This document shows, piece after piece, positions 13,772-29,008 of a stretch of DNA of 64,000 nt (its first letter is position 1; every line of letters starts with the position of its first letter). The position numbers were made by a program, and so were the translations under genes. Location: NCBI RefSeq assembly GCF_029392895.1, contig NZ_CP114200.1, positions 6,082,501 through 6,146,500 of the forward strand, in the 5' to 3' direction. The notes beneath the pieces were generated by a model. It was not told the origin of the DNA, made no database searches, and saw only the letters and a list, made by a program, of their open reading frames with translations. Source of the DNA: Streptomyces sp. 71268 (lineage in GTDB: Bacteria; Actinomycetota; Actinomycetes; Streptomycetales; Streptomycetaceae).

Positions 13772-13884
13772 CCCCGGGGCACCACACCCGCCCCGCCGGC
13801 CCCACCGGAATCCGCCGGCCGTCTCCCGGTCGCCGATTCCGGTCCGGCCCCGTCCCGCACGGAGCCCGGGCCCCGCACGCCGTT

Positions 13885-15360
13885 CTTGGGTTCTAACGGT
13901 CCTCGCAACACCCGCGATCTGTGGGAGTTGCGGGGACCGTGGGCGTTGAGCGTGATGATCTTGCTGGGTTGCGGGAGCGTTTCCTTGCACGTCTGGATGT
14001 CGTGGGGAACGTGACCGTCGTGGCGCGTGAGTTGGGGAGGAACCGGAACACCGCCTTCAGCTGGGCCCGGAAGGCCGGAGTGCGCTCGCAGCGTCGGCGG
14101 CACCCCGGGCGGGATGAGTACGAGCGGCTTCGGGCCGCCGGTGTCGCACGCCGGGTTGCAGCCCGGAAGGTCGGTGTGAACGAGCGCACGGCCAAGGACT
14201 GGGACTGGGGCGTCAAGAAGAGTGGCAGTACGCGCACTTACGCCGACGGCCGCCGTGTCGACTACACCACCGGGACCGTCACGATGTGCGGTGTGACCAC
14301 GCCACCGGTGAGCCTGAGCGCCCTGGAGAAACAGCTTCACCCGCGGTTCTTGACGCTCGCCGAGCGCGAACAGATCCGCGATCTGCGTGCGGCGGGGCAG
14401 TCGCTGCGGGCGATCGGACGTGGCCTGGGACGGCCGGCGAGCACGGTCAAGCGGGAGATCGACGCGAACTCGGGCACCGGAGGGCTACCAGCCCTACGCG
14501 GCCCACCGCGCTGCCGCAGCGCGCAGGCCCCGGCCCAAGGACCGCAAGCTCCTACGCGAGGGACGCCTGCGCCGTTTCGTCCAGGGCGGACTGCGCCAGC
14601 GGTGGTCACCGGAACAGATCTGCCACGCTCTACGCAAGGAGTGTCCCGACGATGAGAGCATGCGGGTGAGCGTGGAGACGGTCTACCAGACGCTGTATTT
14701 CCAGGCCCGCGGCGGCCTGAAACGGGAAGTGCAGGCAGCCATCCGCTCCGGCCGCACCCGCGGCAAACCACGCCGTGACCCCAGCAGCGCACGCCCCGGT
14801 TCACCGACCCGATGATCATGATCAGCGACCGTCCCGCCGACGTCGAGGACCGGGCCGTTCCCGGGCACTGGGAAGGCGACCTGATCATCGGCGCGGGCGG
14901 GCGCTCCGCGATCGCCACCCTGGTCGAACGCAGCACCCGCTACACGATGCTGGTCCACCTGCCCGGCGGAGCCCACGACGCCGAGACCGTCCGCGACGGC
15001 CTCACCACCACGATCCAGACCCTGCCCGCCCACCTGCGCGGCTCCCTCACCTGGGACCAGGGCAGCGAGATGGCACGCCACCAGCAATTCACCATGGCCA
15101 CCGACATGCCCGTCTACTTCTGCGACCCCGCCTCACCCTGGCAACGCGGCTCGAACGAGAACACGAACGGGCTGCTGCGCCAGTACTTCCCCAAAGGCAC
15201 CGACCTGAGCGTCCACAGCCCCGAAGACCTCGAACACGTCGCCCAGGAACTCAACGGCCGCCCACGCAAAACGCTCGGCTGGGATACCCCAGCCGAGCGT
15301 CTACGTGATCTACTCACCACCTAAAACCAAGTGGTGTTGCGACGACCCCTTGAACCCAAG
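13885..15360. mobile_element. IS30-family insertion sequence (degenerate)
   Basis: A 1476-bp element with imperfect terminal inverted repeats: CTTGGGTTCTAACGGTCC at the left and the complement of GACCCCTTGAACCCAAG at the right, both continuing into CGCAACACC. It is flanked by the 3-bp direct repeat GTT (13882-13884 and 15361-15363), the short target duplication expected for IS30 elements. The transposase frame fills it but is broken twice. The insertion lies between leuA and terB and interrupts no obvious gene. Confidence 0.88.
13921..15324 (+). pseudogene. IS30-family transposase, broken by two frameshifts
   Basis: Three overlapping frames together make one IS30 transposase. Frame one (to about 14480) carries an N-terminal helix-turn-helix part and the second HTH LTLAEREQIRDLRAAGQSLR. 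Frame two (about 14480-14800) continues with EGYQPYAAHRAAA, RWSPEQICHALRKE and SVETVYQTLY. Frame three (to 15324) has the DDE catalytic part: [22 protein letters not shown] and [19 protein letters not shown]. The first break needs one base skipped near the GGG at about 14478; the second needs one added near the CCCC at about 14792. All three acidic residues remain, so the inactivation is by indels only. GTG at 13921 or 13939 may be the original start. Confidence 0.85.
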
Positions 15361-15577
15361 GTTTCGGCAGGCGGGGCCCGGGCCCGTGGCGTTCGGGCCC
15401 GCGTACGCCCCTGGGAGCAACCACAGTTGTCTCCGCACGGGGTACTGACGCCGCGTCTCGGATGTGGCTAACATCACGTCAAGGCGGCGACTCTGCTCTC
15501 GGGTGCATAACAAATGCGCAGAGACGTGTTGAAGCAGCGCAACGGAGCGATGCGAAGCGTCAGGGAGGTGCCACGCG

Positions 15578-16300
15578 ATGTACGCGCGAGAGCCACGCGA
15601 ACGGAGCCTGTGCGTCATCGGCATCCGCACGAGCTGGCGCACGGTCGACGACGGGGAGTTCTTCTGCACCGCCTGCGGCGGCGACCGCAACTACCGTCGC
15701 CGTACGGGCCGCCGCAGAGTCGTCCTCCTCGGCCTGCCCCTGTTGCCGCGCGGCGCCGTGGCGCCCGTCGTCGAGTGCTCGGCCTGCCACGCCCGCTTCG
15801 GCGCCGAGGCCCTGGACCACCCCACCACCACGCGGCTGTCCGCCATGCTGCGGGACGCCGTGCACACGGTGGCCCTGGCCGTCCTCGCCGCGGGCGGCAC
15901 CGAGGCCCGCCCGGTGCGCCAGGCGGCCGTCGGCGCGGTGCGCGCGGCGGGGTACGCGGACTGCGACGAGGACCAGTTGCTCGACCTGATCGCGGCGCTG
16001 GCCGCCGACACCGGGCGGCTGCCCGGCATCGGCGCCGACGTGCCGACCATCGCCTTCGGCCTGGGCGACCCGAGCACGACGCTGGCCATCGAACTGCACG
16101 AGGCCCTGGAACCGTTAGCCCCGCACCTGGCCCCGGCCGGCCGCGAGAGCATCCTCCTGCGGGGCGCGCGCATCGCGCTGGCGGACGGCGCGTACTGCCC
16201 CGCCGAGCGCGCGGTGCTGGAAACGGTGGGCCGCGCCCTGTCGCTCGACGCCGACGACACGGCACGCCTGCTCCTCGCCGCCTCCCACGCCGCTCCCTGA
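15578..16300 (+). CDS. TerB-family (tellurite-resistance-like) protein
   Basis: A 240-residue soluble protein. The N-terminal 75 residues contain two CxxC pairs (FFCTACGGDRNY and VECSACHARFG) that likely bind zinc as a ribbon; the rest is an all-helical TerB-like domain with the acidic helix pattern RIALADGAYCPAERAVLETVGRAL. TerB-like domains bind metals and occur in stress and membrane-associated systems; a direct tellurite role is not implied. A strong ribosome-binding site, GGGAGGTG, precedes the ATG. It stands alone between the IS30 element and the MMPL gene. Confidence 0.82.
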   Translation: MYAREPRERSLCVIGIRTSWRTVDDGEFFCTACGGDRNYRRRTGRRRVVLLGLPLLPRGAVAPVVECSACHARFGAEALDHPTTTRLSAMLRDAVHTVALAVLAAGGTEARPVRQAAVGAVRAAGYADCDEDQLLDLIAALAADTGRLPGIGADVPTIAFGLGDPSTTLAIELHEALEPLAPHLAPAGRESILLRGARIALADGAYCPAERAVLETVGRALSLDADDTARLLLAASHAAP

Positions 16301-16516
16301 CCCCGCCCCTCGCTCCCCGTCACACCGAGACGCGGTACGCGGTACCCGTGCGACGCGGGGCGCGGGGCGCTGTCGGGTGTACTCCCCGGGGAGTAACGCC
16401 GAGGTGCGGCCCTCCGGCGAAGTACCGGACATCTCCCTCCCCATGGCGACGATCGCCGCCCCCCGACGCGGAACCCTTGACGTGTCAGCACATCAGGCAC
16501 AGGAGGGGAGGCCCGC

Positions 16517-18420
16517 ATGGCGGTCGCACGGACCACCGGGGGCAGCGGGTTGGCGGGGGAAGCGCCAGACCCGGACGGCGGGAGAGTGGACGCTGCGCCG
16601 GCCGGGGGCGGCGCGCGCGGCCACGGCGAGGCGGCGGCCCGGGGGAGCGGACCGGTACGGGAGCACGGCCCGACGGGCCCCGCCGCGAGCAAGCGCCAGC
16701 GGCGGGGGGTGCCCTGGGCCGTGGTGGCCCTGTGGATCGCCATCATCGCCGTGGCCATGCCCTTCGCCGGCAAGCTCGGCGGCGTCCAGGACGACACGGC
16801 GGTCAACTACCTCCCGGCGAGCGCCGATTCGACCCGGGTGGCCGAGCTCCAGGAGAGCATGCCGGGCGGTGACACCACCGACCTGATCCTCGTCTACCAC
16901 CGCGACGGCGGGCTGACCGAAGCCGACCGGGCGAGCGCCCGCGAGCACATAGCCGGGCTGGCCGACGCGTACCAGTTCAGCGGCGGCCAGCAGCCACGGG
17001 CGGTGGACTCCAAGGACGGCGCCACGGTGATGTACGGGGTGTCGCTCGCCGGGATGCCGGACGAGGAGGACCAGAACAAGGCGGTCGACGACATCCGCGA
17101 GGCCGTCGACGACCATCCCGAGGGGCTGAGCGTGGAGGTCGGCGGCTCCGGTGGCCTCGGCGCCGACGCGAACAAGGTCTTCGAGACCGTCGACGGCACG
17201 CTGATGTTCGCCACCGCGGCCGTCGTCGCCCTGCTGCTGGTCCTCACCTACCGCAGCCCCTTCCTGTGGCTGGTGCCGCTGCTCGTCGTCGGCGCCGCCA
17301 CGGTGTCCGCGATGGCCGTGGTCTACGGACTCTCGCAGGGGTTCGACGTGACCGTCACCGGCATGAGTTCGGCCGTGATGACGGTGCTGGTCTTCGGCGC
17401 TGGCACCGACTACGCCCTGTTGCTCACCGCCAGGTACCGGGAGGAGCTGCGCCGCTACCCGCACCCGTACGACGCGATGGTGGCCGCCCTGCGCGGCTGC
17501 GGCGCCGCCGTGCTCGCCTCGTCCGGGACGGTGGCCGCCGGCCTGATGTGCCTGCTCGCCGCCGACCTGAGCAGCAGCAAGGGGCTCGGGCCGGTCGGCG
17601 CGGCGGGCGTGGTGTGCGCGCTGGCCGCCATGCTGACGCTGCTGCCCGCCATCCTGGTGCTGCTCGGGCGCCGGGTCTTCTGGCCGCTGATCCCCGCGTA
17701 CGGCAGCACGCCCGCCAAGCGGCGCAACGTGTTCGCGGCCATGGGCGGTTCGGTCAGCCGGCGCCCGGTCACGTTCCTGGTGGGCGGCGTGGCGCTGCTT
17801 GGGGCGCTCGCCCTCGGCGCGCTGGCCGCGCCCGGCGACCTCAAGCAGGAGGACACCTTCACCAACAAGCCCGAGTCGGTCTCGGCCATGCAGACGCTGG
17901 CCAGGGCCTATCCCGAGCAGGGCAGTCAACCGATCACCATCATGGCCCGCACCACCAACGCGGACGCCGTGCTGCGCGTGACCCAGGACCACGACGGGAT
18001 CGTCAGGGCCGAGCGCGGTCGCAGCGGCGAGGGGTGGACCGAGATCAGCGCGTTCGCCAAGGACGCCCCGGAGTCGGCGGGCGAGGTCAGCACCATCAAG
18101 CGACTCCGCTCCGAACTCGCCACCATCGACGGGGGCAAGGCCCTGGTCGGCGGCGCCAGCGCGGAACAGATCGACCTGGAGAAGACCAACGCGGACGACC
18201 GCAAGGTGGTCATTCCGCTGGTGATGCTCGCGGTGTTGCTGATCCTGATAGCCCTGCTGCGCAGCCTGATCGCGTCGGTGATGCTGGTGGCCGCCGTGGT
18301 CGCGGTCTGGGGTGCGGCGACGGGGCTCGGCGGGCTGCTCTTCGAGCCGGTCTTCGACCTGAAGGGCATCGATCCCGGACTCCCGCTGATCACCTTCGTC
18401 TTCCTGGTGGCCCTGGGTGT
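16517..18420 (+). pseudogene. MMPL/RND-family transporter, 5' part (split by an integrated island)
   Basis: The first 635 residues of an MMPL-type membrane transporter, a proton-driven lipid or drug exporter of the RND superfamily. After a Gly/Arg-rich tail come a first membrane helix (WAVVALWIAIIAVAMPFAG), a periplasmic loop, the helix block YRSPFLWLVPLLVVG with the proton-relay AGTDYALLLTARYREEL, and a second loop. It runs into the attL site in FVFLVALG and then continues 23 foreign codons before a stop at 18490. The missing C-terminal part lies at 24661-25038 in the compatible frame. A good ribosome-binding site (AGGAGGGGAGG) precedes the ATG. In the integrated state the transporter is truncated. 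Confidence 0.9.
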
Positions 18421-18433
18421 TGCGACACCACGC
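18416..18433. repeat. attL junction of the island
   Basis: GGTGTTGCGACACC (18416-18429) is a near-perfect palindrome centred on the junction. Its first five bases are shared with attR at 24661-24665 and lie in the MMPL frame. Serine integrases recombine at a two-base crossover inside such a short core; GT within GGTGT is the likely dinucleotide. Confidence 0.75.
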
Positions 18434-18491
18434 CATACTAGTCTGGTGTCGTCGGGTAGCGGCCCGTCGCCGCTGTTCAGGGGTGGTTAGC

Positions 18492-20021
18492 GTGAGAGAA
18501 GTTGATCTCTACCTTCGTAAGAGCAAGCGCGACCGACGTGGAGTCAAGGCGCTGTCTTTCAAGGCGCAGGAGACTAGGGGGCGCAAGTGGGCCGACGATC
18601 ACGGCTACAGCGTGCGGAAGATCTGGAAAGACAACCTCAGCGCGTGGACCGATACGAAGCGTCCGGGTTTCGACCGGGCGCTGTCGGCGTTGCGGGCCGA
18701 GGAAGTACCGACCCTGTGGTGCTATGCGGGTGACCGTCTGACACGGGCAGGCTCAGACCTGATTGCCCCGCTGTTGACAGCGGGGCGTCGCCTGATCTTC
18801 GACTATGAGCGGTTGGACAGCGACGATCCGCGCGACCGTCGACGGATCATCGACCGTGCGGAGGAGGCGCGCGAGTTCAGCGATCTACTGTCGTACAGAG
18901 TCCGCGATACGAAGACGACGCAGCGGCGCGAGGGGGCATGGCTGGGGGGTGCGCCGTACGGCTTCCGCATAGCCGACAAGGACACGCGAAAGCTTGAGCA
19001 GGACTCAACACGTGTGGCCCCTGGGGTCACGGCGTGGGATGTGGTAATACGCATCTTCCGTGAAGTGAGTGAGGGCCGGTCGGCTCGACAGGTGGCTAGG
19101 CGGCTCAACGCCGACGGTATCCCCTCGGCACGTGGTGCGGCGTGGGGCTTCGGCGCCATACACCGACTGATCTCCAGCCCTGTCTATGAGGGGTGGCAAG
19201 TGGTTGTCGGTGGTCCGGGTGGTCGGTCGCTGGTGTGGCGAGACGAGAAGGGGAAGCGCGTCTCTGTGTTGGCGGAAGGCACCGATCCTGTCCCCGGCGA
19301 GTTGGTGTCCCTAGCACGCCAAGTGATTGCCGGACATGCGCCGGTCGCGGACGCCACGGACAACCGGGGGCGCGTCAAGCACCCGTTGTCGGGCCTATTG
19401 CGGTGCAGTAACTGCGGTAGCGGCATGGTCCTACACGGCAACTCGTATCGATGCAACCGCCACACATCGGGCGGGTCATGTCTCAACCCGGCAACCGTCA
19501 TGCAAGCGCGCATCGAAGAGTACGTCTTCGGTCGATGGGCCGCTGAGGTAAGCCGAGCCAGCATCGACGCTGGTGATCCGCTGATGCTTGCTGTTGCCGA
19601 GCGCTGGCAGGCGCTCACGCAGCCGGAGCAGACCGAGGAGGCACGAGCCGCCATAGCTGCCGTGAAAGCGGCTGAGGCGGCTATCGAGCAGCTTGCCAAC
19701 GACCGTGCGGCGGGGCTCTACCGGGGCGCCATGGGGAAGCACTTTCCGCGCCTAGTGGCTGAGGCTGAGACCACGCTCTCCGACGCGCAGGAACACGCTT
19801 CGACGTTCAGCGTCAAGGGGCTGGACGTGACCATGTTCGATGAGACGAGCATGCTCCACGCCCGATGGGAAGCCGCTGACGACGCGTTGCGGCGCGACTT
19901 GCTGCGGTTGGCCATCGACAAGGTGACCGTCTCGCGTGGCACGCGTGGCGCCCGCTTCGATGGTGACGATCGCTGTGTCATCACTTGGGCCCACCCCGCC
20001 GATGCGGCTGGAGAGGCGTAG
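18492..20021 (+). CDS. int: large serine recombinase (phage-type integrase)
   Basis: A 509-residue site-specific integrase that joins attP and attB through a 5'-phosphoserine link. The resolvase domain opens with VDLYLRKSKRDRRG, the catalytic Ser at residue 11; it is followed by a recombinase domain (WLGGAPYGFRIADKD, then SEGRSARQVARRLNADGIPSARG) and a zinc ribbon (LLRCSNCGSGMVLHGNSYRCNRH, then GGSC). The C-terminal third has a coiled-coil-like helix. GTG at 18492 is chosen since AGGGG lies 8 bases upstream; the gene starts only about 70 bases from attL, as is usual. A hairpin terminator follows the stop. Confidence 0.92.
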   Translation: MREVDLYLRKSKRDRRGVKALSFKAQETRGRKWADDHGYSVRKIWKDNLSAWTDTKRPGFDRALSALRAEEVPTLWCYAGDRLTRAGSDLIAPLLTAGRRLIFDYERLDSDDPRDRRRIIDRAEEAREFSDLLSYRVRDTKTTQRREGAWLGGAPYGFRIADKDTRKLEQDSTRVAPGVTAWDVVIRIFREVSEGRSARQVARRLNADGIPSARGAAWGFGAIHRLISSPVYEGWQVVVGGPGGRSLVWRDEKGKRVSVLAEGTDPVPGELVSLARQVIAGHAPVADATDNRGRVKHPLSGLLRCSNCGSGMVLHGNSYRCNRHTSGGSCLNPATVMQARIEEYVFGRWAAEVSRASIDAGDPLMLAVAERWQALTQPEQTEEARAAIAAVKAAEAAIEQLANDRAAGLYRGAMGKHFPRLVAEAETTLSDAQEHASTFSVKGLDVTMFDETSMLHARWEAADDALRRDLLRLAIDKVTVSRGTRGARFDGDDRCVITWAHPADAAGEA

Positions 20022-20042
20022 GCGACGCGCTGAGCGCCGTTC

Positions 20043-20078
20043 ACGGCCCGCTGCTGGGAGCGCCCAGTGGCGGGCCGT
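20043..20078 (+). terminator. hairpin terminator after the integrase
   Basis: ACGGCCCGC and GCGGGCCGT flank an inner CTGGG/CCCAG pair with AGCG loop, giving a long interrupted stem 22 bases after the integrase stop, followed by TGGGCGTTC. Likely Rho-independent end of the integrase transcript. Confidence 0.65.
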
Positions 20079-20344
20079 TGGGCGTTCTCGCGGGAGCGTG
20101 CGGCTATGCGTTGACGACGGGGTGTCGAAGTGTCGTATTACAGCATCGAGCGAACTTCCCCTTACGTCAGAGTTGTTTGTTTTTGCTCTCTCTATACACC
20201 TAAACAGGGTCTGAGCTGTAGGTTCAATGGTTCGTCCGTTCACCTACCGAGCCACCTTCTTGTCACCTTGTCCACCTATTCGGGTCCGGGAGCGGCAAGA
20301 CAGCGGGGTGAAGTGTCTTGAATGGATATCTATGGGAGGTTTGA
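20079..20344. other. AT-richer intergenic region of the island
   Basis: This 266-base stretch is clearly lower in GC than the flanks, with TTGTTTGTTTTTGC and CTCTCTATACACC segments, and probably holds the promoter for the 237-residue gene. A single near-consensus DnaA-type 9-mer TTGTCCACC sits at 20268-20276. No convincing gene is seen in it. Confidence 0.4.
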
Positions 20345-21058
20345 ATGAGTAAGTACATAGCCGATGCGTCTGCACGCGATGCGCTGGAAGTGGCGGCAAT
20401 GCATGCCAGTAGGGCAGACGTTCCCGTGCCGTTCGTCTGGAACGGGGCGCAGTGGGCCACCCAGGGGGGAGAGTGGCGCGACTGGCCGCTGATCCGTCGA
20501 GAGGTGGGCGGGTGGCTGCGAGGGCTGGCAGACGCTCTGTCGGGCGACGGGGCGTTGACCGAGCGCCGACGCCGTGCACGGCGACAGTTGGACGCTGCGC
20601 GAGAAGCGTTGGAGGACGCTGGGGTGAGTGAGGAGGAGGAAGAACGTCAGACGCAGATCATCGGCGTGGCGTACAAGGAGTTGGAGGCCACCCGGGGCGC
20701 CGTGACTGTTCAGCCAGCATTGGTCCGTGACATGCGTGTGGTGGCGTCGGAGATCGAGTCCGCATCCGATGCGCGCGCCACACAATTGCTCTCGCTGGCA
20801 TCGCAGTTCGACGCGTTCCGCGCTTCGCTGTCCGATCCGGCATCGTGGGTCCGGAGCCTGGGTACCGCGCCGCGTGGTGTCCACGTGCGGACGGCTGCGG
20901 TGTGGGAGGCATTCAGTGCGGCCGAGCCTGTACTAGCTCGCTCGTTGGGCATGACGACAGGCAAGCGGGCGTTGTTCGCGGCCATGGACAAGAGGTTCGG
21001 TGCGCGCCGCAAGCTTGCGGGGTATGAGGGCTGGCGCGGGGTGGCCTTGCCAGAGTGA
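20345..21058 (+). CDS. hypothetical island protein with basic and acidic helices
   Basis: A 237-residue protein that I do not recognise. It has a strong ribosome-binding site (GGGAGGT) four bases before the ATG. Residues 60-80 are very basic (TERRRRARRQLDAAREAL), followed by an acidic run EEEEER near 98-102 and long predicted helices to about 165. The last 55 residues (VWEAFSAAEPVLARSLGMTT to GYEGWRGVALPE) resemble the small winged-helix tail found at the ends of some phage primases and replication proteins, with the closing GWRGV pattern. A DNA-binding accessory role in the island is possible but unproven. A G6/C6 hairpin follows its stop. Confidence 0.7.
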   Translation: MSKYIADASARDALEVAAMHASRADVPVPFVWNGAQWATQGGEWRDWPLIRREVGGWLRGLADALSGDGALTERRRRARRQLDAAREALEDAGVSEEEEERQTQIIGVAYKELEATRGAVTVQPALVRDMRVVASEIESASDARATQLLSLASQFDAFRASLSDPASWVRSLGTAPRGVHVRTAAVWEAFSAAEPVLARSLGMTTGKRALFAAMDKRFGARRKLAGYEGWRGVALPE

Positions 21059-21063
21059 GACCC

Positions 21064-21081
21064 AGGGGGGTACTCCCCCCT
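21064..21081 (+). terminator. AGGGGGG/CCCCCCT hairpin
   Basis: A 7-bp perfect stem with TACT loop, six bases after the stop of the 237-residue gene. Probable terminator or mRNA 3' stabiliser. Confidence 0.5.
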
Positions 21082-21101
21082 CTCGCCATGCCTGAGCGGG
21101 A

Positions 21102-21380
21102 GTGAGGCGAAACTTCCGCATGGCTGATTGGGGCGTTTGCGCGGAGGAGGGGCAGGGGGGTGACCTGTGTCGCGCTTGTCGGCGGACCGTTGAGGTGCTC
21201 ACCCGCTCCCCGAGTACGGGTCTGGGGACGGAGCGTCACCGGCTCGGACCGTCTCATAAACGATGGTTTATGAGACGGTCCGCCGCCTGCCGGGCGGGTG
21301 TCCGTTTCGACCCGTCTACCCGTCTCAAAACCCGTCGCAAAACATCTGCCGAACCCGTGGATTATGAGACGCCTTTATGA
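21102..21380 (+). CDS. doubtful small open frame
   Basis: An open frame of 92 codons (GTG start) or 86 (ATG at 21120, MADWGVCAEEGQGGDLCRAC). The front has three cysteines in a CxxC-like array that could bind zinc, but the second half reads through the perfect inverted repeat at 21245-21282 and the operator-like motifs before the resolvase, which argues against it being a full-length gene. No convincing ribosome-binding site. Listed as possible only. Confidence 0.2.
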   Translation: MRRNFRMADWGVCAEEGQGGDLCRACRRTVEVLTRSPSTGLGTERHRLGPSHKRWFMRRSAACRAGVRFDPSTRLKTRRKTSAEPVDYETPL

Positions 21381-21383
21381 GAC
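21245..21383. promoter_or_regulatory. resolvase res/operator region with five TTTATGAGAC motifs
   Basis: A perfect 17-bp inverted repeat with a GATG centre (21245-21261 and 21266-21282) contains GTCTCATAAA and TTTATGAGAC head to head. Further copies are GTCTCAAAAC (21322-21331), ATTATGAGAC (21361-21370) and TTTATGAGAC (21374-21383), the last ending 9 bases before the resolvase ATG. Spaced motifs in both orientations in front of a serine resolvase gene are what a res site or autoregulatory operator looks like. Confidence 0.75.
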
Positions 21384-21392
21384 AGTCATGGC

Positions 21393-22232
21393 ATGACGAC
21401 GAAGACGAACTCCCCGGCCGAACTGATCGAGCGCCACGACTGCCCGAAGTGCGACGCTCCCGCCGGTAGCCCCTGCCGCACTGGCAAGGGCAAGACAGCC
21501 GCGAACTATCACACCGGCCGGTTCGCCTTGGTGCCCTCGCTCAAGGCAGAGTTGTCCGTCAAGACACCGGCCGACCGTCGCCCGGGGAAGACGTGGGTGG
21601 CTCTAGCGGCTCCCGTGGCGGACGCCGACGCTACCCCCGGCGCCCCGATCCGCATCGGTTACGCGCGCTGCTCCACGGCCAACCAGGAGCTACAGAGCCA
21701 GTTGGACGCGCTGGCCCGTGCTCAGTGCACCCGAGTGTTCTCGGAGAAGATCAGCACGCGAGTCAAGACCCGCCCGGAGTTCGAAGCCGCCTTGACGTTG
21801 GCGCGTGAGATCAAGTCCGCTGCTCCGCAACAGCCGGTGATCTTGGCGGTGCACGAGATGAAGCGTCTAGCGCGCAATGCCGCTGAGCTGATGGCGCTGG
21901 GGCCAGACCTCCAGGCCAGCGGCATTCAGCTTGAGATTCTGTCCGGCCCCCTCCAGGGCGTGCACGACCCCCATGGCCCCGGAGCCATCGTGTTCGCCGT
22001 GATGGCGGTCGGTGCGGAGGTGGAGCGCGACTACATCCGGGATAGGACCATGGAGGGGCTGGACGCAGCGGCAAGCAAGGGCAACTACGGCGGGCGCCCG
22101 ACCGTCATGGATGCCGACAAGCTGGCCGTGGCACGGGCACGGCGGGAGAAGGGCGAGAGTGTGACCGACGTTGCCAAGGCGCTCGGTGTGTCTCGCGCGA
22201 CGCTCTACCGGGCGCTGTCTGACGCCCAGTGA
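21393..22232 (+). CDS. resolvase/invertase-type serine recombinase with N-terminal zinc motif
   Basis: A 279-residue recombinase. Residues 1-60 form a separate front domain with CPKCDAPAGSPCRTGKGKTA and a later His, the phage-type treble-clef zinc pattern seen in many actinophage small proteins. The resolvase domain starts at IGYARCSTANQELQSQLDAL near residue 90, where the Ser in CSTANQ is the nucleophile; RLARNAAEL and AEVERDYIRDRT follow. The C-terminus has a helix-turn-helix (SVTDVAKALGVSRATLYRAL) for DNA binding. It is preceded by the repeated TTTATGAGAC motif. It is smaller than and distinct from the integrase at 18492; it may resolve dimers or control gene expression in the island. Confidence 0.9.
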   Translation: MTTKTNSPAELIERHDCPKCDAPAGSPCRTGKGKTAANYHTGRFALVPSLKAELSVKTPADRRPGKTWVALAAPVADADATPGAPIRIGYARCSTANQELQSQLDALARAQCTRVFSEKISTRVKTRPEFEAALTLAREIKSAAPQQPVILAVHEMKRLARNAAELMALGPDLQASGIQLEILSGPLQGVHDPHGPGAIVFAVMAVGAEVERDYIRDRTMEGLDAAASKGNYGGRPTVMDADKLAVARARREKGESVTDVAKALGVSRATLYRALSDAQ

Positions 22233-22245
22233 GCCCCACACAGCA

Positions 22246-22280
22246 AGCGAGCCCCTGCCGACGACTGGCAGGGGCTCGCT
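22246..22280. terminator. bidirectional terminator between resolvase and DUF397 genes
   Basis: AGCGAGCCCCTGCC (22246-22259) and GGCAGGGGCTCGCT (22267-22280) form a perfect 14-bp stem with a 7-base loop, followed by GTCCTTT. It lies between two convergent genes and can end both transcripts. Confidence 0.85.
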
Positions 22281-22291
22281 GTCCTTTGGGA

Positions 22292-22522
22292 TCAGGGGGC
22301 CGGGAACTCTCCAGCCTTGACACCTGTCACGAACGTTGACCACGCCGACGGGGTGAAGGCGAGCGTAGGGCCGTGCGGGTCCTTCGAGTCGCGAACCGGG
22401 ACGACGCCCAGCGAACTCGCGGCGTCAGGTGACCACTCCACGCACTCCCCCGCCTGCCCGTTGCTGTAGCTGCTCTTTACCCAGGTCAGGTCATGTGCGT
22501 TGGCGTCAAGAGTCAATGTCAT
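22292..22522 (-). CDS. DUF397 domain protein
   Basis: A 76-residue small protein, MTLTLDANAHDLTWVKSSYS then CVEWSPD and VPVRDSKDPHGPTLAFTPSA, the diagnostic pattern of DUF397 proteins. These occur almost only in actinobacteria next to XRE-DUF5753 regulators (WhiJ/AbaA-type loci) and are thought to modulate them; in some systems the pair behaves like a toxin-antitoxin. The ATG at 22522 has GGAAGAG 7 bases upstream and the start overlaps the 3' end of the regulator gene by 17 bases, so the pair is co-translated. Confidence 0.9.
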   Translation of the reverse strand: MTLTLDANAHDLTWVKSSYSNGQAGECVEWSPDAASSLGVVPVRDSKDPHGPTLAFTPSAWSTFVTGVKAGEFPAP

Positions 22523-23351
22523 TCTCATACTCTTCCAGGTATCTGCGGAGAAGAACCACGCTCTCCTTGCTGTCAAGGGCCTTGGATCGGGCGATATCGA
22601 GAAGAGTCGTCAGTTCCAGAACGTCGGCAGGGGTGTCAACCGACGTGCCGGTTGCGAACGACTCGACATACGCGAAGGTCAGACCGTTCCGAAGGGTGAG
22701 CAGACTCAAGCTACCGCCCAACAGGGGGTGGACTCCACGCGAGAACGGGAGCACCTGAACCCGCACGGTGCTGTTGTGCTGAACCACGTCGAGTATGTGA
22801 CGAACTTGCTCCGCCATGATGGCCGAGTTGCCGACGGGACGACGTAGCGCCGCTTCGTCCATGATTGCCCAGTAGAGCGGGGGCGCTGGCGACTCCAACA
22901 CCGCGCGGCGATGCATCCGGGAAGCCACTTGCAGTGCAACCTTCTCGGCATCCTTGCCGGGCATCGACTCCACGAACAGCGCGGACGTGTACGGCTCAAC
23001 CTGCAAGAGCCCGGGGACGACGCTGCTGTTGAACGTCTGGATGCGGGCGGCGCGCTTCTCCTCCTCCAGCACCTTGCGGCCGTACACAGGGCCTTCCGCT
23101 GCAACGGCCACCGTTAGTAACTCGGTGATCAGTCCGTCCGTCCCGTAGAAGTCGTCCAGGGCTTCCGCCAGTGCGACGGAGGGCAGTTGCTCCCCCCGCT
23201 CAACGCGGCTCAAGTACGTGTGCGGGTATCCGACCTTCTCGGCGAGTGCGCGCAGCGACAGGCCGACCTTTGCCCGTGCTCGGGCGGCTCGATGGGCAAG
23301 CATCTCCGCTGGTGAGGCGGGTATTGCGTCGGCTTCCGAATCTAGCTCCAT
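22506..23351 (-). CDS. XRE-family regulator with DUF5753
   Basis: A 281-residue DNA-binding regulator. The N-terminal helix-turn-helix is GLSLRALAEKVGYPHTYLSRVERGEQLPS (residues about 31-58); from about 95 onward is DUF5753, with FNSSVVPGLLQVEPYTSALF and the later VRVQVLPFSRGVHP. It belongs to the WhiJ-like group common in Streptomyces. It overlaps the DUF397 gene, forming an operon. A divergent set of small genes starts about 130 bases away; the space between contains ACCTGGGG (23413-23420) and CCCCAGGT (23447-23454) as an inverted pair, a candidate operator for this regulator. Confidence 0.92.
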   Translation of the reverse strand: MELDSEADAIPASPAEMLAHRAARARAKVGLSLRALAEKVGYPHTYLSRVERGEQLPSVALAEALDDFYGTDGLITELLTVAVAAEGPVYGRKVLEEEKRAARIQTFNSSVVPGLLQVEPYTSALFVESMPGKDAEKVALQVASRMHRRAVLESPAPPLYWAIMDEAALRRPVGNSAIMAEQVRHILDVVQHNSTVRVQVLPFSRGVHPLLGGSLSLLTLRNGLTFAYVESFATGTSVDTPADVLELTTLLDIARSKALDSKESVVLLRRYLEEYENDIDS

Positions 23352-23499
23352 GCGGCTGACTCCCTCTCAAGCGCCTGTCCACTGAGGGTAGTTGGTGACG
23401 TGCTGTCCGTATACCTGGGGCGCTCCGACGGCGATGCTTGAGAAGTCCCCAGGTGACCAATCACCGGGATGTAAGCCGACCATGGAAGGCGGTGAAACG

Positions 23500-23778
23500 G
23501 TGAGCGCACAGACCAGAGCGGCGGGCGTTCCGGAACTCGAACCCGTGGCTTTCCCTGAGTGTCGGGTGTGCTTCGTGGCAGACAGGGACCGGACGGACGC
23601 CAGGGAGCGGCAGGCGTCCAACCGGGTCCGTGACTGCAACCAGATCATCTCGGAGCACCCCCGCCACCAGCGGAGCGAAGCGAGGCGTACCGCTCTCAGC
23701 GTCGCTGCGCTGGCGGGGGAAGTGGCCGAGGTGTCGGCGGGTGTGTACCTCGCCCACATCGCGACCAAGGCCGACTAG
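23500..23778 (+). CDS. small hypothetical protein of the island
   Basis: A 92-residue soluble protein, MSAQTRAAGVPELEPVAFPE onward, with a conserved-looking core ADRDRTDARERQASNRVRDCNQIISEHP and a C-terminal Ala-rich helix. I do not recognise a characterised family, but proteins of this look recur near XRE/DUF397 loci and phage-like islands of streptomycetes. The GTG at 23500 is chosen; an ATG at 23482 in the same frame is an alternative. Its TAG stop overlaps no base of, but directly abuts, the ATG of the next small gene (TAGATG), so the two are coupled. Confidence 0.65.
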   Translation: MSAQTRAAGVPELEPVAFPECRVCFVADRDRTDARERQASNRVRDCNQIISEHPRHQRSEARRTALSVAALAGEVAEVSAGVYLAHIATKAD

Positions 23779-23874
23779 ATGCCGCCCGACTGGAAGGTGG
23801 GCGCGTTCTTCGTCCTCCAAGCCGCCGCATGGATCGTCTTGGCCATTGTCGCCACCGGGCCCCGGCCCTGGTGA
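23779..23874 (+). CDS. 31-residue single-helix membrane peptide
   Basis: MPPDWKVGAFFVLQAAAWIV continues LAIVATGPRPW: one hydrophobic helix of about 20 residues with a short charged front and a Gly-Pro-Arg-Pro-Trp end. The ATG immediately follows the stop of the upstream gene, so translation is probably by reinitiation. It may be a small membrane anchor, regulator or toxin-like peptide. Nothing further can be said from sequence. Confidence 0.55.
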   Translation: MPPDWKVGAFFVLQAAAWIVLAIVATGPRPW

Positions 23875-23941
23875 CTGCTGGCCCCACCTACCCCCTGCCT
23901 GGCGCCGTGCACACACCGCCAGGCAGGGACGCAAGGCACGA

Positions 23942-23966
23942 CAGTTCGGGGACCGTCCCCGAACTG
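23942..23966. promoter_or_regulatory. 12-bp perfect inverted repeat, candidate operator
   Basis: CAGTTCGGGGAC and GTCCCCGAACTG face each other around a single C. A one-base centre cannot form a stable loop without opening inner pairs, so a dimer-binding operator is as likely as a hairpin. It lies 27 bases before the small acidic peptide gene at 23993. Confidence 0.6.
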
Positions 23967-23992
23967 GCACGGTGACACGAGGAGAAACCGAC

Positions 23993-24097
23993 ATGTTGCA
24001 CGCCGCATCGTGGCAACTCGCTGTGGACCCGGACGACGACGACGGGGGCGAGCCGAACCCGCCGACGGGCGACTCTGACGACGGACGCCCGTACTAG
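23993..24097 (+). CDS. 34-residue acidic peptide
   Basis: MLHAASWQLAVDPDDDDGGE continues PNPPTGDSDDGRPY. It has a perfect ribosome-binding site, GAGGAG, 8 bases upstream, so it is probably translated. The front third is hydrophobic and the rest is Asp/Pro/Gly-rich and disordered. Possible roles are a regulatory peptide or signal precursor; no family is recognised. A palindromic candidate operator precedes it. Confidence 0.6.
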   Translation: MLHAASWQLAVDPDDDDGGEPNPPTGDSDDGRPY

Positions 24098-24188
24098 ATC
24101 GCGTCGTCAAGTAGCCTGCCCTAACCGGTAACTCACGTGCCCGGCGCCCCCATTGCGGGGCGTCGGGTTCGGCGCGAGAGGGGTATCC

Positions 24189-24575
24189 ATGAGCGGAAAC
24201 ACTGGGGTGCACTGGCACGCCTTTGCGTGGACCGGACATGAGCGGCCCCCGGACAGCGAACGAGTGATTCCCACCAATCCGACGCCACCGTTGGAGGTGG
24301 CGCACTGGCTCCGCAAGCAGCGCAAGCACGTGGCGGCCACGTTCACGGACGCTGACGCCGCAGTTGAGTGGATGCGGGAGGAACTAGCCGCATGGCCCAT
24401 GGCTGACCAGACGCTGAGCACGGTTGAGTCGAAGATCGAGTTCACACGGGAGTGTCTGAGCCGACCCGACGCCGACGTGGTGTTCGGCTTCTACCCCGCC
24501 GTTCAGCGGTACGTGTCTCGGTGCCTGATCTACTGCCCCCGGCCCGGGGAGAAGTGCCCGGACCCTCCTGCCTAG
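24189..24575 (+). CDS. hypothetical island protein (128 residues)
   Basis: A soluble alpha/beta-looking protein, MSGNTGVHWHAFAWTGHERP at its front, a central helix WLRKQRKHVAATFTDADAAVEWMREELA, and a tail with three cysteines (RCLIYCPRPGEKCPDPPA). The ATG at 24189 follows GAGAGGGG. It is the last gene of the island, ending about 85 bases before attR. I do not recognise its family; the His/Trp-rich front and Cys tail could bind metal. No antiphage signature is visible. Confidence 0.65.
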   Translation: MSGNTGVHWHAFAWTGHERPPDSERVIPTNPTPPLEVAHWLRKQRKHVAATFTDADAAVEWMREELAAWPMADQTLSTVESKIEFTRECLSRPDADVVFGFYPAVQRYVSRCLIYCPRPGEKCPDPPA

Positions 24576-24660
24576 CCAACGTGGGTGGCGCGCCCCCATC
24601 TGAAAACAGTCCCGCTCACCTCGTCGTACCGGACGAGTGGGCGGGACTGTTGCATTGCGG

Positions 24661-25038
24661 GGTGTCGCGTTTACCCTCGGCGTCGACTACGGCATCTTCC
24701 TGATGCACCGCATGCGCGAAGAGGCGATCAAGGGCGCGAGCACGCCGCAGGCGGCCCTCACCGCGCTGCACACCACGGGCGGCGTGATCGCCTCGGCCGG
24801 GTTGGTGCTGGCCGCGACCTTCGCGGTGCTGGCGACCATGCCGATGGCGATGATGCTGGAACTCGGCTTCATCATCGCGGTCGGCGTACTCCTCGACACC
24901 TTCCTGGTCCGCACCTACCTGGTCACCTCGGCGAGCCTGCTGCTCGACCGGTGGATCTGGTGGCCCGGCAAGCTCTTCCGCCGCCAGGCGCCGCAGCCCG
25001 CCCCGGCACCGGAGCGGACGGCAGAGCCGGTCGGCTGA
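24661..25038 (+). pseudogene. MMPL/RND-family transporter, 3' part
   Basis: The last 125 residues of the MMPL transporter whose front lies at 16517-18420. It starts inside attR and carries the second proton-relay motif LGVDYGIFLMHRMREEA followed by three membrane helices (GGVIASAGLVLAATFAVLAT, MMLELGFIIAVGVLLDTF, RTYLVTSASLLL) and a Pro-rich tail. It has no credible start of its own, so it is presumably silent unless the island leaves. The GGT-GTC codons at the junction are in phase with the 5' part. Confidence 0.9.
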
Positions 25039-25150
25039 CGGTCCGACGGGCCGCCCCGGGCGGGAGTCGGCCGAGGGACTGATCGCTTGCCCGGTGCCGG
25101 CCGGCCGCCGCGACCGCGTGACGGCCCGCCGGCGACCGGCGAGCCCCGCA

Positions 25151-25189
25151 CGCCTCCGCGCACGCCCCTCCCGGGCGTGCGCGGAGGCG
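25151..25189 (+). terminator. 17-bp-stem terminator after the MMPL gene
   Basis: CGCCTCCGCGCACGCCC (25151-25167) pairs without mismatch with its complement at 25173-25189 around CTCCC. It lies 113 bases beyond the MMPL stop and should insulate the following two-component operon. Confidence 0.8.
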
Positions 25190-25270
25190 CGACCACGGCC
25201 GGGCCCGTACGGGCCTGGCCGCGCCGCGCTCACCAGGTCAACGGCCCGATCCAGCAGGCGTGATCGAGAG

Positions 25271-25279
25271 TTATCCACA
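25271..25279. other. isolated consensus DnaA box
   Basis: TTATCCACA is an exact match to the E. coli DnaA box; streptomycete boxes favour TTGTCCACA. It stands alone 33 bases before the histidine kinase start and could be chance or a DnaA titration/regulatory site. It is not an origin. Confidence 0.35.
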
Positions 25280-25311
25280 GGCATGGACGGGTCGGAGCGA
25301 AAGTCGGCGCC

Positions 25312-27204
25312 GTGCCGCACGATGGGACCGTGCAGATGACCGAATTCACCGCCGCCTTGCGAGGCGACCGGCGCCCGCCCGCCAGGACGAGGGCCCGGCC
25401 GTCGGCGTGGGACGTGGCACTCGCGCTGGCGGTGCTCGTCGTCCAGAGCCTGCTGGCGCTCAGCGTGCGCAACGACGGCAGCCGCCCCGACGCCCTCGGC
25501 TGGGCACTGCTCATCGTGAGCGCGCTGGCGCTGGTGTCCCGCAGGACCGCCCCGACGGCCACCACGGTGGTGGTCGTGCTGGCGGTCGGCCCTTACCACT
25601 CGCTGGACTACGCCCACTTCGCCACGGTGCCGGCGGGTGTGGTCGCGCTGTACGCGCTGGCGGTCGGCGCGCCGGCGTACAGGTCGTTGGTGGCGCTCAG
25701 CGCGATAGTCGGCGTCATGGCGGTGTTGATGTCCAACTCGCCTGACGAGCAGGCGCTGCCGGAGATGATGCGCAGCTCCGGGTGGCTGTTGGCCGTGGTG
25801 GTGATCGGCATAGCGGTCAGGACGCACCGCAACTACGTGGCCGCCATCGTGGAGCGGGCCGAGCGCGCCGAGCGCACCCGTGAGGAGGAGGCCGCGCGAC
25901 GGGTCGCCGAGGAACGCCTGCGGATCGCCCGTGACCTGCACGACCTGTTGGCCCACAGCATCACGCTGATCGGCGTGCAGACATCGGTGGCGGCGCACGT
26001 GCTGGTCGCCGATCCGGACCGGCTCGACCGGGACGCGGTCGCCAAGGCGCTGGACTCGATAGCCGACACCTGCCGGGACGCCCGGGCAGAACTCCGCACC
26101 ACGCTGCGGGTGCTGCGGGCCGGGGAGGCGGAGCCGGCGACCGACTCCACCCGCCCGCCACCGGGCCTCGCGGGCCTGCCCGACCTGGCGAACTCGGCCG
26201 AGGCGGCGGGGGCCCGCGTCACGCTGGACTTCCCGCTGACCCCGTCCGCCGCGTCCGCGGTCCCGCCGGCGGTGGGGGCGGCGGCGTACCGCATCGTCCA
26301 GGAGGCGCTCACCAACGCGGTGCGGCACGCGGGCCCCGATGTCCGCACGGTGGCCACCGTGCGGAAGGTTCCCCACCCCTGGGCGGAAGGCGAGGCGTTG
26401 AGCGTCACGGTGACCGACGACGGGCCGCCCTCGGTCCGCCTCCCGGCCCAGCGTCGCGGTGGCGCCCCGGCCGACCCCTCCGCGCCCACGCGCGAGTTCG
26501 CGCCCAGCGGGCGCCGCGCCGTCGGTGCGGTCGGTGCGGCCGGCGCCACGGGCCGGCCGGGCGCGAGCGGAGCGGCCCAGGACCGCGGGGTCTCGGCTGG
26601 CGCCGGCCCGGGGCCTGGCGGCGGTACGAGCGCCGCCAGGCCCGGCACGGACGGCCAGGGCTCCGGGAGTTCGGGCGGTCCCGGCGGTTCCGGTAGTCCG
26701 GGCGGGCCTGCCGGAGACGGCTCGGTCGGGGCCGAGGGGTTTGGCATCGCCGGCATGCGCGAGCGGGCGCGCAGCGTCGGGGGTTCGGTCACGGCCGGCT
26801 GGCGGGCGGACGGCCCGGGGTTCGTCGTCCGGGCGATCCTGCCGCTGACCAGTACGCCGCGTGGCGGCCCGGCCGCACCGCGCGGCGAGTCGACGGCCTT
26901 CGGCTGGAAGGGCGCCAGGAGCGCGAGTGCGGGTGGGAAGGCCGCGGCCAGGGACCAGGCGTGCCCCGACGCGGAACCCGTGGACCGCGCCGCGCCCCGG
27001 CCCGATCCGCAGCCGGCCCGGCCAGGTCCGCAGCCGGCCTGGTCCCCCGAGCCGCGGTTGGCACCGCTGCCCGAAACGTCCCCCGAGTCGGATGCGGTGC
27101 GGCGTGACGAGCCACGGGCCGGGCCACGGTTCCCCGGGGCACAGGTGGCGGCGCGGTCCGAGATATCCGAGGCAAGAGGACAGACAGAGGAGGACGCGTC
27201 GTGA
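25312..27204 (+). CDS. NarL/DesK-type sensor histidine kinase with an enlarged ATP-lid
   Basis: A 630-residue membrane histidine kinase that pairs with the response regulator it overlaps. Five hydrophobic helices span about residues 35-165 (from WDVALALAVLVVQSLLALSV to SGWLLAVVVIGIAVRTHR), then the HisKA_3 dimer domain with phospho-acceptor His in RIARDLHDLLAHSITLIGVQ, N-box YRIVQEALTNAVRHAG and D-box VTVTDDGPPS near 364. The final G-box GFGIAGMRERARSVGG appears only near 476, after about 100 residues of Gly/Ala/Ser-rich sequence in the lid, and a further 120-residue Pro-rich tail follows. GTG 25312 or ATG 25336 may be the start; neither has a good ribosome-binding site. Confidence 0.88.
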   Translation: MPHDGTVQMTEFTAALRGDRRPPARTRARPSAWDVALALAVLVVQSLLALSVRNDGSRPDALGWALLIVSALALVSRRTAPTATTVVVVLAVGPYHSLDYAHFATVPAGVVALYALAVGAPAYRSLVALSAIVGVMAVLMSNSPDEQALPEMMRSSGWLLAVVVIGIAVRTHRNYVAAIVERAERAERTREEEAARRVAEERLRIARDLHDLLAHSITLIGVQTSVAAHVLVADPDRLDRDAVAKALDSIADTCRDARAELRTTLRVLRAGEAEPATDSTRPPPGLAGLPDLANSAEAAGARVTLDFPLTPSAASAVPPAVGAAAYRIVQEALTNAVRHAGPDVRTVATVRKVPHPWAEGEALSVTVTDDGPPSVRLPAQRRGGAPADPSAPTREFAPSGRRAVGAVGAAGATGRPGASGAAQDRGVSAGAGPGPGGGTSAARPGTDGQGSGSSGGPGGSGSPGGPAGDGSVGAEGFGIAGMRERARSVGGSVTAGWRADGPGFVVRAILPLTSTPRGGPAAPRGESTAFGWKGARSASAGGKAAARDQACPDAEPVDRAAPRPDPQPARPGPQPAWSPEPRLAPLPETSPESDAVRRDEPRAGPRFPGAQVAARSEISEARGQTEEDAS

Positions 27205-27902
27205 GTGCGTCGCAGCCCATTCGGGTACTGCTCGCCGACGATCAGACGCTGGTGCGGGCCGCCTTCGCGATGCTCGTCGAGTCGGCCCGCGACATGCGGG
27301 TGGTCGGCCAGGCGGGCAACGGCAGGGAAGCGGTCGAGCTGGCCCGCGCGGTCGACGTCGACCTCGTCGTGATGGACATCCGCATGCCGGAACTGGACGG
27401 GATCGAGGCGACGCGACGCATCGCGGCTGACGCGGAGTTGGCCGACGTGAAGGTGCTGGTCCTCACGACGTACGACACCGACGAGTACATCGTGGACGCC
27501 CTGCGCGCGGGTGCCTCGGGGTTCCTGGTCAAGGACACCAAGCCGGCGGAGCTGCTGGACGCGATCCGTACCGTGGCGGCGGGGGAGGCCCTCCTGTCGC
27601 CGGGCCCCACGGCCCGCCTCATCGCCCGCGTCCTCCGCCTGCCCGCCCCGCTGCCACCGGCCCCCGCCGTCCCCGACACGCTGGCCGCGCTCTCCGACCG
27701 GGAGCGCCAGGTGCTCACCCTGGTGGGGCGCGGGCTGAACAACGCGGAGATAGCCGAGGCGTTGGGCCTGAGCCCGTTGACGGCCAAGACGCACGTCAGC
27801 CGGATCATGGGCAAGCTGATGGCGCGCGACCGGGCCCAGCTCGTGATCGCCGCGTACGAATCGGGGCTGGTGTCCCCGGCGGCCCGGACGGACGCGGGGT
27901 AG
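27201..27902 (+). CDS. NarL/LuxR-type response regulator
   Basis: A 233-residue cytosolic response regulator, partner of the kinase whose stop it overlaps by 4 bases (GTGA). The receiver domain has the acidic pair LLADDQ, phospho-acceptor Asp in DLVVMDIRMPELDG, and the Lys in FLVKDTKPAEL. The LuxR-type helix-turn-helix is LSDRERQVLTLVGRGLNNAEIAEALGLSPLTAKTHVSRIMGKL near the C-terminus. The regulon is unknown; the pair follows an MMPL transporter gene, a common arrangement, but a terminator lies between. A ribosome-binding site AGAGGAGGACG lies in the end of the kinase gene. Confidence 0.95.
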   Translation: MSASQPIRVLLADDQTLVRAAFAMLVESARDMRVVGQAGNGREAVELARAVDVDLVVMDIRMPELDGIEATRRIAADAELADVKVLVLTTYDTDEYIVDALRAGASGFLVKDTKPAELLDAIRTVAAGEALLSPGPTARLIARVLRLPAPLPPAPAVPDTLAALSDRERQVLTLVGRGLNNAEIAEALGLSPLTAKTHVSRIMGKLMARDRAQLVIAAYESGLVSPAARTDAG

Positions 27903-28091
27903 CGGTCGGCCGGCGCCCGAGCGGCCGGGAGGTTCGCCCCGGAGTGGGGGAGGCCGTGCCGTGGACGGGTGCCCGGAGGCCAGCCGGGCGGGGGAGGGGC
28001 GGGGGAGGGGGAGGGGGGAGGGGCCCGGGAGACGTAAGGAAGGCGACCGGCGGTTGGCATGGCGGGTCGGGGCGTCGGCTACCGTGGCCGC

Positions 28092-28631
28092 ATGCCGACG
28101 CACGCCCGAGACCGACTGCTGAAGGCCGCCGCGGAGTTGTTCTACGTGGAAGGCATCCAGGCGGTCGGGGTCGAACGGTTGCTGGCCGTCTCGGGGGTGG
28201 GCCGGGCGTCCTTCTACCGACACTTCGCCGGCAAGGACGCGCTGGTCGCGGCCGTGCTCCAGCGCCAGGGCGAACAGTGGCTGGCGTGGCTTGGGGCGGC
28301 TGTCGCCGAGCACGGCGGTGGGCCGCTGGCCGTCTTCGACGCGCTGGCCGACCGCGCGCGGAGCCGCGGGTTCCACGGGTGTGCGTTCGTCAACGCGATG
28401 GCGGAGACGGCCGACCCGAGCAGCGAGGTGTATTGGTTGGCGCAGGCGCACAAGCGCCGGGTCACGGCGTACGTCGAGCAGTTGCTCAAGGCGGCGGGGT
28501 ACGAGCGGCACGAGGCGCTGGCCGAGCAGTTCGTCCTGCTGATGGACGGGGCGACGGTGACCGCGATGCGGGAGCGCACCGGCGCGCCGGCGCTGCGGGC
28601 CCGCGAGATGGCCAAGCACCTGCTCGGCTGA
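28092..28631 (+). CDS. TetR/AcrR-family regulator
   Basis: A 179-residue repressor-type protein. The TetR helix-turn-helix is at residues about 8-48: RDRLLKAAAELFYVEGIQAV, then GVERLLAVSGVGRASFYRHFAGKDALVAA. The C-terminal part is a helical ligand-binding domain with a conserved-looking FHGCAFVNAMAE. The ATG at 28092 has no ribosome-binding site, and TACCGT lies 9-14 bases upstream, so the mRNA is probably leaderless. No adjacent transporter or enzyme gene makes an obvious target; autoregulation is likely. Confidence 0.9.
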   Translation: MPTHARDRLLKAAAELFYVEGIQAVGVERLLAVSGVGRASFYRHFAGKDALVAAVLQRQGEQWLAWLGAAVAEHGGGPLAVFDALADRARSRGFHGCAFVNAMAETADPSSEVYWLAQAHKRRVTAYVEQLLKAAGYERHEALAEQFVLLMDGATVTAMRERTGAPALRAREMAKHLLG

Positions 28632-28742
28632 GCGGAGCGACGCGCGGGGAGGGGCCCGACCGCCGGGTGACGCCGCATCCGTCCGCGCCAAACCGCCCGC
28701 GTCCAGCCGGCCGCACTCGACCGCGCCCAACCGGCACACCAG

Positions 28743-28846
28743 GCCGCCCGCGTCCAGGCTTCCGCACCCAACCGGGGCCGGCCCGCACCCACCCGACCGA
28801 ACCCAGCCGCCCGCGTCCGGGCTTCCGCACCCAACCGGGGTCGGCC
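28743..28846. repeat. two 41-bp direct repeats in a proline-codon-like spacer
   Basis: The 41-bp unit starting GCCGCCCGCGTCC occurs at 28743-28783 and 28806-28846 with two mismatches, period 63. It sits in the 380-base gap 28632-29008, which is full of CGCACCC/CAACCG variants and contains no credible gene. The region looks like expanding GC-rich spacer. Confidence 0.7.
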
Positions 28847-29008
28847 GCACCCAGCCGCCCGCAGCCGGCCGCCCCCCCAACCGCTCGAACCCAGCCGCAC
28901 CCGGCCGCCTCCAGCCAACCGCGCCTACCTGACCGCACCCGACCGCCCGCGCCCGCCCGAGTCCTCACCCCTCACGCTCGTCCTCGGCCCCACCCCTCCC
29001 GCGCGCGT

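Follow-up and report, generated by a model that had tools for sequence, protein, structure and literature searches.

Why is an MMPL transporter gene of Streptomyces sp. 71268 cut in two by a small island that carries a large serine integrase, and does the island have anything to do with the transporter? We approached this from a window of 64,000 nucleotides, the whole stretch of DNA analysed, which occupies positions 6082501-6146500 of a contig of 8.38 Mb. The split of the gene is, as such, ordinary. It very probably reflects a compact integrative element of 6,263 bp that inserted in the MMPL gene fairly recently and incidentally. The features of the locus are collected in Table 1.

Table 1. 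Features of the interrupted MMPL locus, with positions in the window
Feature	Position	Strand	Evidence
5' part of MMPL transporter gene	16517..18414	+	PF03176, TIGR00833; 16266-18420 is 95.1% identical to the DNA of G047
attL core CCCT, with CT at 18413-18414 as the likely crossover	18411..18414	+	empty site in G047; attP register
Predicted attP right arm, element end beside integrase	18415..18437	+	dyad; register with tuf-type attP
Large serine integrase, 509 aa	18492..20021	+	PF00239, PF07508, PF13408; phrog_95; invariant S11 and zinc-ribbon Cys
orf237, no known domain	20345..21058	+	unmatched in Pfam, NCBIfam and PHROGs; relatives at 50-70% identity in six further genomes
Res-like site of three parts, preceding the small resolvase gene	21250..21387	+	17-nt perfect inverted repeat at 21245-21282; sub-sites kept in 6/6 elements compared
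Small serine resolvase, 279 aa, N-terminal phage-type zinc finger, C-terminal HTH	21393..22232	+	PF24623, PF00239, PF02796
DUF397 protein	22292..22522	-	PF04149 (scanned from 22519)
XRE-type regulator with DUF5753	22506..23351	-	PF13560, PF19054
Small protein, start uncertain, possibly 23483	23392..23778	+	no match in phages
128-aa protein	24189..24575	+	no Pfam, NCBIfam or PHROG family, no match in phages
Predicted attP left arm, far end of element	24653..24675	+	dyad; register with tuf-type attP
attR core CCCT, with CT at 24676-24677 as the likely crossover	24674..24677	+	attP register; empty site in G047
3' part of MMPL gene	24674..25038	+	PF03176, TIGR00833 815-910
Histidine kinase adjoining MMPL, host context only	25312..27204	+	beside MMPL in 9/9 closest loci (L002-L010)

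The interrupted transporter gene

The original prediction of an MMPL gene split by a serine-integrase island holds. PF03176 and TIGR00833 match both parts, the best stretch of TIGR00833 in the profile scan covering its positions 3-424 in the first part and 815-910 in the second, and the integrase lies between them. The frame of the 5' part continues into the element and runs to a stop ending at 18490. A histidine kinase gene follows the MMPL gene in all nine of the closest loci.

In intervals of 500 bases lying wholly inside the island the GC content is 0.60-0.69; it is 0.70-0.77 in the 5' MMPL part (16500-18249) and 0.71-0.82 downstream (24750-28999). GC alone is no marker of the island, because a second dip, to 0.66, lies outside it at 15000-15749. 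A stretch of about 1.5 kb at 13884-15361 is missing at the same place from G047, a close relative, and an ORF at 15070-15324 resembles what we take to be the end of an IS30-type transposase.

A search of 121 genomes of the genus at E <= 1e-30 used the 165 residues that precede the break, and 58 genomes, including the element's own, have a match. The best match, at 98% identity, is in G047 and belongs to an open frame of 794 aa. The site is empty in G047 and reads GGTGGCC-CT-CGGCGTCGAC (also given as GGTGGCC-CT-CGGCGTCGACTAC). On each side of the site 194/200 bases are identical, with 20/20 next to the core, and identity drops to 6/20 and 7/20 on entering the element. Over longer distances the flanks are collinear with the window, at 95.1% identity for 16266-18420 and 88.3% for 24674-28867. 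No copy of the island is present in G047; there are weak matches only, the best of which lies in the DUF397 region and has 71% identity along about 240 bases. The states seen are therefore integrated in the window and empty in its relative. Because the empty site of G047 lies in an open frame, precise excision would rebuild a full transporter, as had been proposed.

The crossover site

The original prediction placed both junctions in GGTGT, in the same codon phase. The two copies of this motif (18416-18420 and 24661-24665) both lie on the element side of the crossover, and joining them yields ...FLVALGV-AFTLGV-DYGIFLM (FLVALGVAFTLGVDYGIFLM), with six additional residues, AFTLGV. These are absent in 18/18 homologues aligned over the junction (19 loci of other genomes were given, of which L017 was unaligned). 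MMPL loci from 32 of the 57 other genomes with a match were read at the same point. The six residues are missing from 29/29 further homologues (L096-L124), each of which reads FVFLVALGVDYGIF within an open frame that spans 691-789 residues of the stretch compared. Three homologues whose frames are shorter (G098, G135 and G049) likewise have the usual motif and no insertion at this place. GGTGT is not the junction, because the join adds six residues absent in every homologue read there. The uninterrupted homologue that the original prediction had proposed to look for thus exists: the gene is intact in G047 and unbroken at this place in the 32 other genomes.

The homologues of G098 (L129) and G135 (L130) have frames broken elsewhere in the MMPL gene by frameshift-like changes, hinting that the transporter may be dispensable. 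That of G049 begins at a contig end.

The core common to both ends is CCCT, at 18411-18414 and 24674-24677. These copies are 6,263 bp apart, which is the size of the element; the island is small, as predicted. Within the core the crossover dinucleotide is most likely CT, judged from the symmetry and register of the predicted attP. Of the 91 registers whose two dinucleotides are equal, the one with CT at 18413/24676 has the strongest attP dyad, at 15/23, a level reached by 0.015% of 20,000 random pairs, although the CT register is itself the best of 91. The tuf-type attP sites described below belong to integrases 55-56% identical to this one. With CT aligned to their TA, CACC is equidistant in both arms and CAT in one, and the arms agree with the tuf-type arms at 13/23 and 10/23 positions (random mean 5.9, sd 2.05); the left-arm match is moderate, since 4.1% of random stretches reach 10/23.

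It could still be argued that the host gene truly had six extra codons and that the crossover lies in GGTGT or in a GGGTGTYGCG stretch, given that near-identical stretches occur at both ends and that the runner-up register, GC at 18422/24667, has a dyad of 14/23. That second register also counts against our own placement, but it fails the homologue test and matches the tuf-type arms at only 6/23 and 3/23. The four GGTGT registers score 2-8/23 on symmetry and agree with the tuf-type arms in no more than 10/23 and 7/23 positions, and the extra codons are missing in G047 and in all the homologues counted above. We regard six lost codons as scarcely credible. GGTGT as the crossover is ruled out by the homologues, the G047 empty site and the attP register together, and an attractive junction is replaced by a predicted one that a natural empty site backs.

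The integrase and its relatives

The integrase looks intact from its sequence. Its domains PF00239, PF07508 and PF13408, all above cut-off, are those of resolvase, recombinase and zinc ribbon. S11, R9, R82, R85 and Cys 305, 308, 321 and 330, residues of the catalytic domain and the zinc ribbon, are invariant in 8/8 aligned sequences (its own and seven relatives), so the catalytic site, on whose state the original prediction partly hung, looks unbroken. The protein does not belong to XisF, the fdxN element recombinase, scoring 59.6 bits with NF041201 against a cut-off of 375.

The closest named phage integrases are those of Streptomyces phages Shaeky and phiK38-1 (35.7% and 35.9% identity), and the closest solved structure is that of phiC31 integrase (E 1.4e-16). 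The likeness to these is that of a large serine integrase over nearly its whole length; the island differs in having no recognised virion genes, and its att sites are unlike any compared. The predicted attP/attB pair, with core CT, would serve an integrase without a close named phage relative and is a candidate cloning tool.

Integrase matches at E <= 1e-60 occur in 22 of 392 genus genomes, its own included, and all 18 named contigs that carry a related integrase come from Streptomyces or Kitasatospora. Its closest relatives are those of L021 and L040. Together the related integrases make up 45 loci, 37 of them distinct (18 named-contig loci, 23 genus loci without its own and 4 further). Their flanks were compared as far as the contig permits, over 10 kb or else about 1.5 kb. 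None has an MMPL gene in these flanks, although L036 and L076 extend less than 0.5 kb on the integrase side and an MMPL gene there could escape. Weak histidine kinase matches occur in the flanks at L021 and L052.

At nine of the 45 loci (eight distinct) the integrase lies at an EF-Tu-like gene, which we take to be tuf3-like; L028 has one unrelated weak EF-Tu match, 36% and about 5 kb away. Related integrases at such a gene were noted in L042-L044 and L063-L071 (G005, G378 and G380), and in L022-L025 and L038; in L025 the second half of the gene is also within the flank. Both ends are present in three of these tuf-type elements, of 11,368 bp (G378), 15,798 bp (G005) and 13,901 bp (G380). The G378 attP is a near-perfect palindrome, 22/23, centred on TA. 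The G380 element has the opposite orientation, and in our reading TA is common to the shared stretches of both orientations; a palindromic dinucleotide would permit insertion in either orientation. The tuf-type elements encode, by reading, a tape-measure-like protein, and G005 has a capsid protein that shares 55% identity with its counterpart in phage Samy.

In a separate set of related loci (L026, L027, L029, L031, L032, L033 and L036), ACACCCTGGGATC, ACACCCTGGGACC or ACACCCTTGGACC precedes the integrase by no more than about 200 bases; these stretches probably mark a further common target.

Other genes of the element

Among the seven island proteins, scanned with Pfam, NCBIfam and PHROGs, there were no transfer, replication or virion families, although a novel type would escape such a scan. 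Specifically, nothing in them was recognised as a relaxase, a TraB/FtsK-type translocase, a known Rep, the product of a virion gene or a directionality factor. The view of a small island without recognisable transfer or structural genes is thereby upheld. As both translocase and replication initiator are absent among these seven proteins, the element is not classed as an AICE. Rfam gave no RNA element match in 16000-28000. A defence role was considered and rejected, PADLOC matches falling only in helix-turn-helix stretches.

The AlphaFold model of orf237, made from the single sequence, has a mean pLDDT of 48.5; the C-terminus of the protein may resemble primase-type winged helices. The protein at 23392-23778 has weak relatives near the far end of the G005 and G341 elements. 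The DUF397 stretch, in the pair of genes at 22292-23351, has many DNA relatives at 69-78% in its own genome and in G047, so the DUF397/XRE regulator pair is of a common chromosomal type.

A proposed family of compact elements

We propose a compact family defined by the combination of orf237 with a neighbouring large serine integrase and with a small resolvase preceded by a three-part res-like site. The element in the window and those of G374, G341, G435, G496 and G568 have all of these. Relatives of orf237 were found in 3 of 392 genus genomes and, with a three-row alignment, in 6 of 394 family genomes, its own included in each count. The six other genomes with relatives, 50-70% identical, are the five just named and G618. 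Each of the six carries a large serine integrase, with 24.6-31.9% identity to that of the window where matched, and five have the small resolvase, at 47.9-50.3% identity over the resolvase part. In G618 there was no resolvase match in the 9 kb examined; its integrase is 63% identical to that of G341, and foreign genes lie between integrase and orf237. Without G618, the res-like region keeps its three sub-sites in 6/6 elements compared, and the spacer is not conserved. In G374 and G435 the first sub-site is weaker in its left half. We take this layout to resemble Tn3-type res sites.

Gene calls in relatives, here and above, came from a simple script. The G374 element splits a DUF2252 gene, both halves of which are recognised by Pfam, and measures about 5.9 kb from where the halves stop and resume; a dyad search for its ends gave no clear winner. 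Pfam recognises an ABM gene at whose start the G341 element is inserted, with 6,457 bp between two ACGCT copies, and by reading the G618 element is at an ABM gene too. Also by reading, the G568 element, of about 7.9 kb, interrupts a YifB-like gene at the Walker A motif, and that of G496 (L093) is at an NHL/thioredoxin-like gene, the 5' end of which occurs on both sides, as if the element carried a replacement gene start. The G435 element is beside a helicase-like gene. With apparent lengths of about 5.9, 6.5 and 7.9 kb in its relatives, small size is normal for the orf237 family and not a mark of decay.

No relative of orf237 was found in 50,697 phage records, nor in viral contigs in two pattern scans. 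Among the open-licence PMC papers surveyed on MMPL and tuf/EF-Tu attB sites, actinobacterial integrative elements, Streptomyces satellites and gene-gating elements, none was seen to describe the element or the family, and within that survey the family looks undescribed.

Discussion

With the domains of a large integrase, two ends that share a short core and an empty site in G047, the island is a serine-integrase element. We infer that its integrase is active. It would recombine attP, with the dyad GGTGTCGCGTTTACC-CT-GGGTGTTGCGACACC, with an attB in the conserved MMPL stretch VALG-VDYGIF. This exchange would leave attL and attR sharing CCCT, and the break in the transporter would be a by-product. 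Excision would release a circle and restore the MMPL gene, either with an unrecognised factor or with none, as for Faln2929, whose excision is reported without an identifiable directionality factor in the part of PMC3218068 consulted. AICEs such as Faln2929 share with the island a serine recombinase and insertion in a protein-coding gene. They carry a translocase and a replication initiator, however, and neither was recognised here. The resolvase would act on the res-like site, most simply resolving multimers of a replicating circle, and the XRE/DUF397 pair may control the element. Spread from cell to cell would need a helper plasmid or phage. Bearing different large integrases, members of the orf237 family would reach different targets.

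The original prediction saw in the island a possible developmental or stress switch, in which a host programme excises the element to turn the transporter on, as with the skin element in sigK. There is a precedent in skinCd of Clostridioides difficile, an element with a large serine recombinase whose excision restores a split gene. According to the portion of PMC5025042 available, most strains carry skinCd, and its directionality factor is staged. The island has an XRE regulator aboard, an integrase that looks intact and a target frame that precise excision would restore. That restoration is no evidence of gating, because any precise excision of a site-specific element restores its target, and the agreement in codon phase carries no weight for the same reason. 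Unlike skinCd, the element was seen in one genome and has no recognised directionality factor; G047 has the empty site and lacks the island, and at 33 loci of other genomes (29, 3 and L003), one genome per species, there is no insertion, so that the conservation of a skin-type gated gene is not seen. None of the 45 related-integrase loci has MMPL in the flanks compared, and nothing ties the element to the transporter, because the same core module is found elsewhere with other integrases. The regulatory-switch reading finds no support, and we consider it very improbable, although occasional gating may occur.

The incidental insertion that we prefer has weaknesses of its own. The dating of the insertion as fairly recent draws on one relative, with longer flanks at the identities given above, and an element lacking recognised relaxase, translocase, Rep, virion gene and directionality factor could be an immobile remnant. 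Such a remnant would be a larger element or prophage that has lost its transfer or virion genes and is unable to leave the gene; the larger tuf-type elements, of 11.4-15.8 kb and with a capsid gene in one, lend this some colour. Yet the integrase appears preserved, as do the two attP arms, the resolvase and the res-like site, and elements of similar size recur with the same core and other integrases, which makes a dead remnant unlikely. A phage satellite, packaged and moved by a helper phage, would account for the small size, the integrase, the regulator and the phage-type zinc finger on the resolvase, and small capsid-less satellites exist, namely the PICMIs, going by the section of PMC10803314 consulted. 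The absence of orf237 relatives from the phage records and viral contigs searched, and of any recognised packaging gene, again leaves this an improbable explanation.

A compact integrative element that entered the gene by chance is thus our preferred reading, and a bolder one, to which we give less than even odds, extends it to the whole family. It supposes an undescribed family of very small integrative elements that are replicating circles when excised, with orf237 as a new kind of replication protein, the resolvase and res site resolving multimers, and exchange of integrases moving the core among target genes, each of which would be reversibly silenced. Whichever way they work, orf237 and the res-like site offer a handle on the persistence of 6-kb elements without recognised transfer genes. 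The pairing of a small serine resolvase with a three-part dyad array just ahead of its gene is, we presume, akin to Tn3-type resolvase/res modules; it differs in the zinc finger on the resolvase and in the lack of a recognised transposase in the island, and the res role is putative.

A parallel in position is the mutS element of Vibrio splendidus, which also lies inside a conserved motif and whose relatives were found via their integrases, as given in the part of PMC5296598 consulted. There the most similar integrases are mostly at the same gene, whereas those related to the integrase in the window are at other genes.
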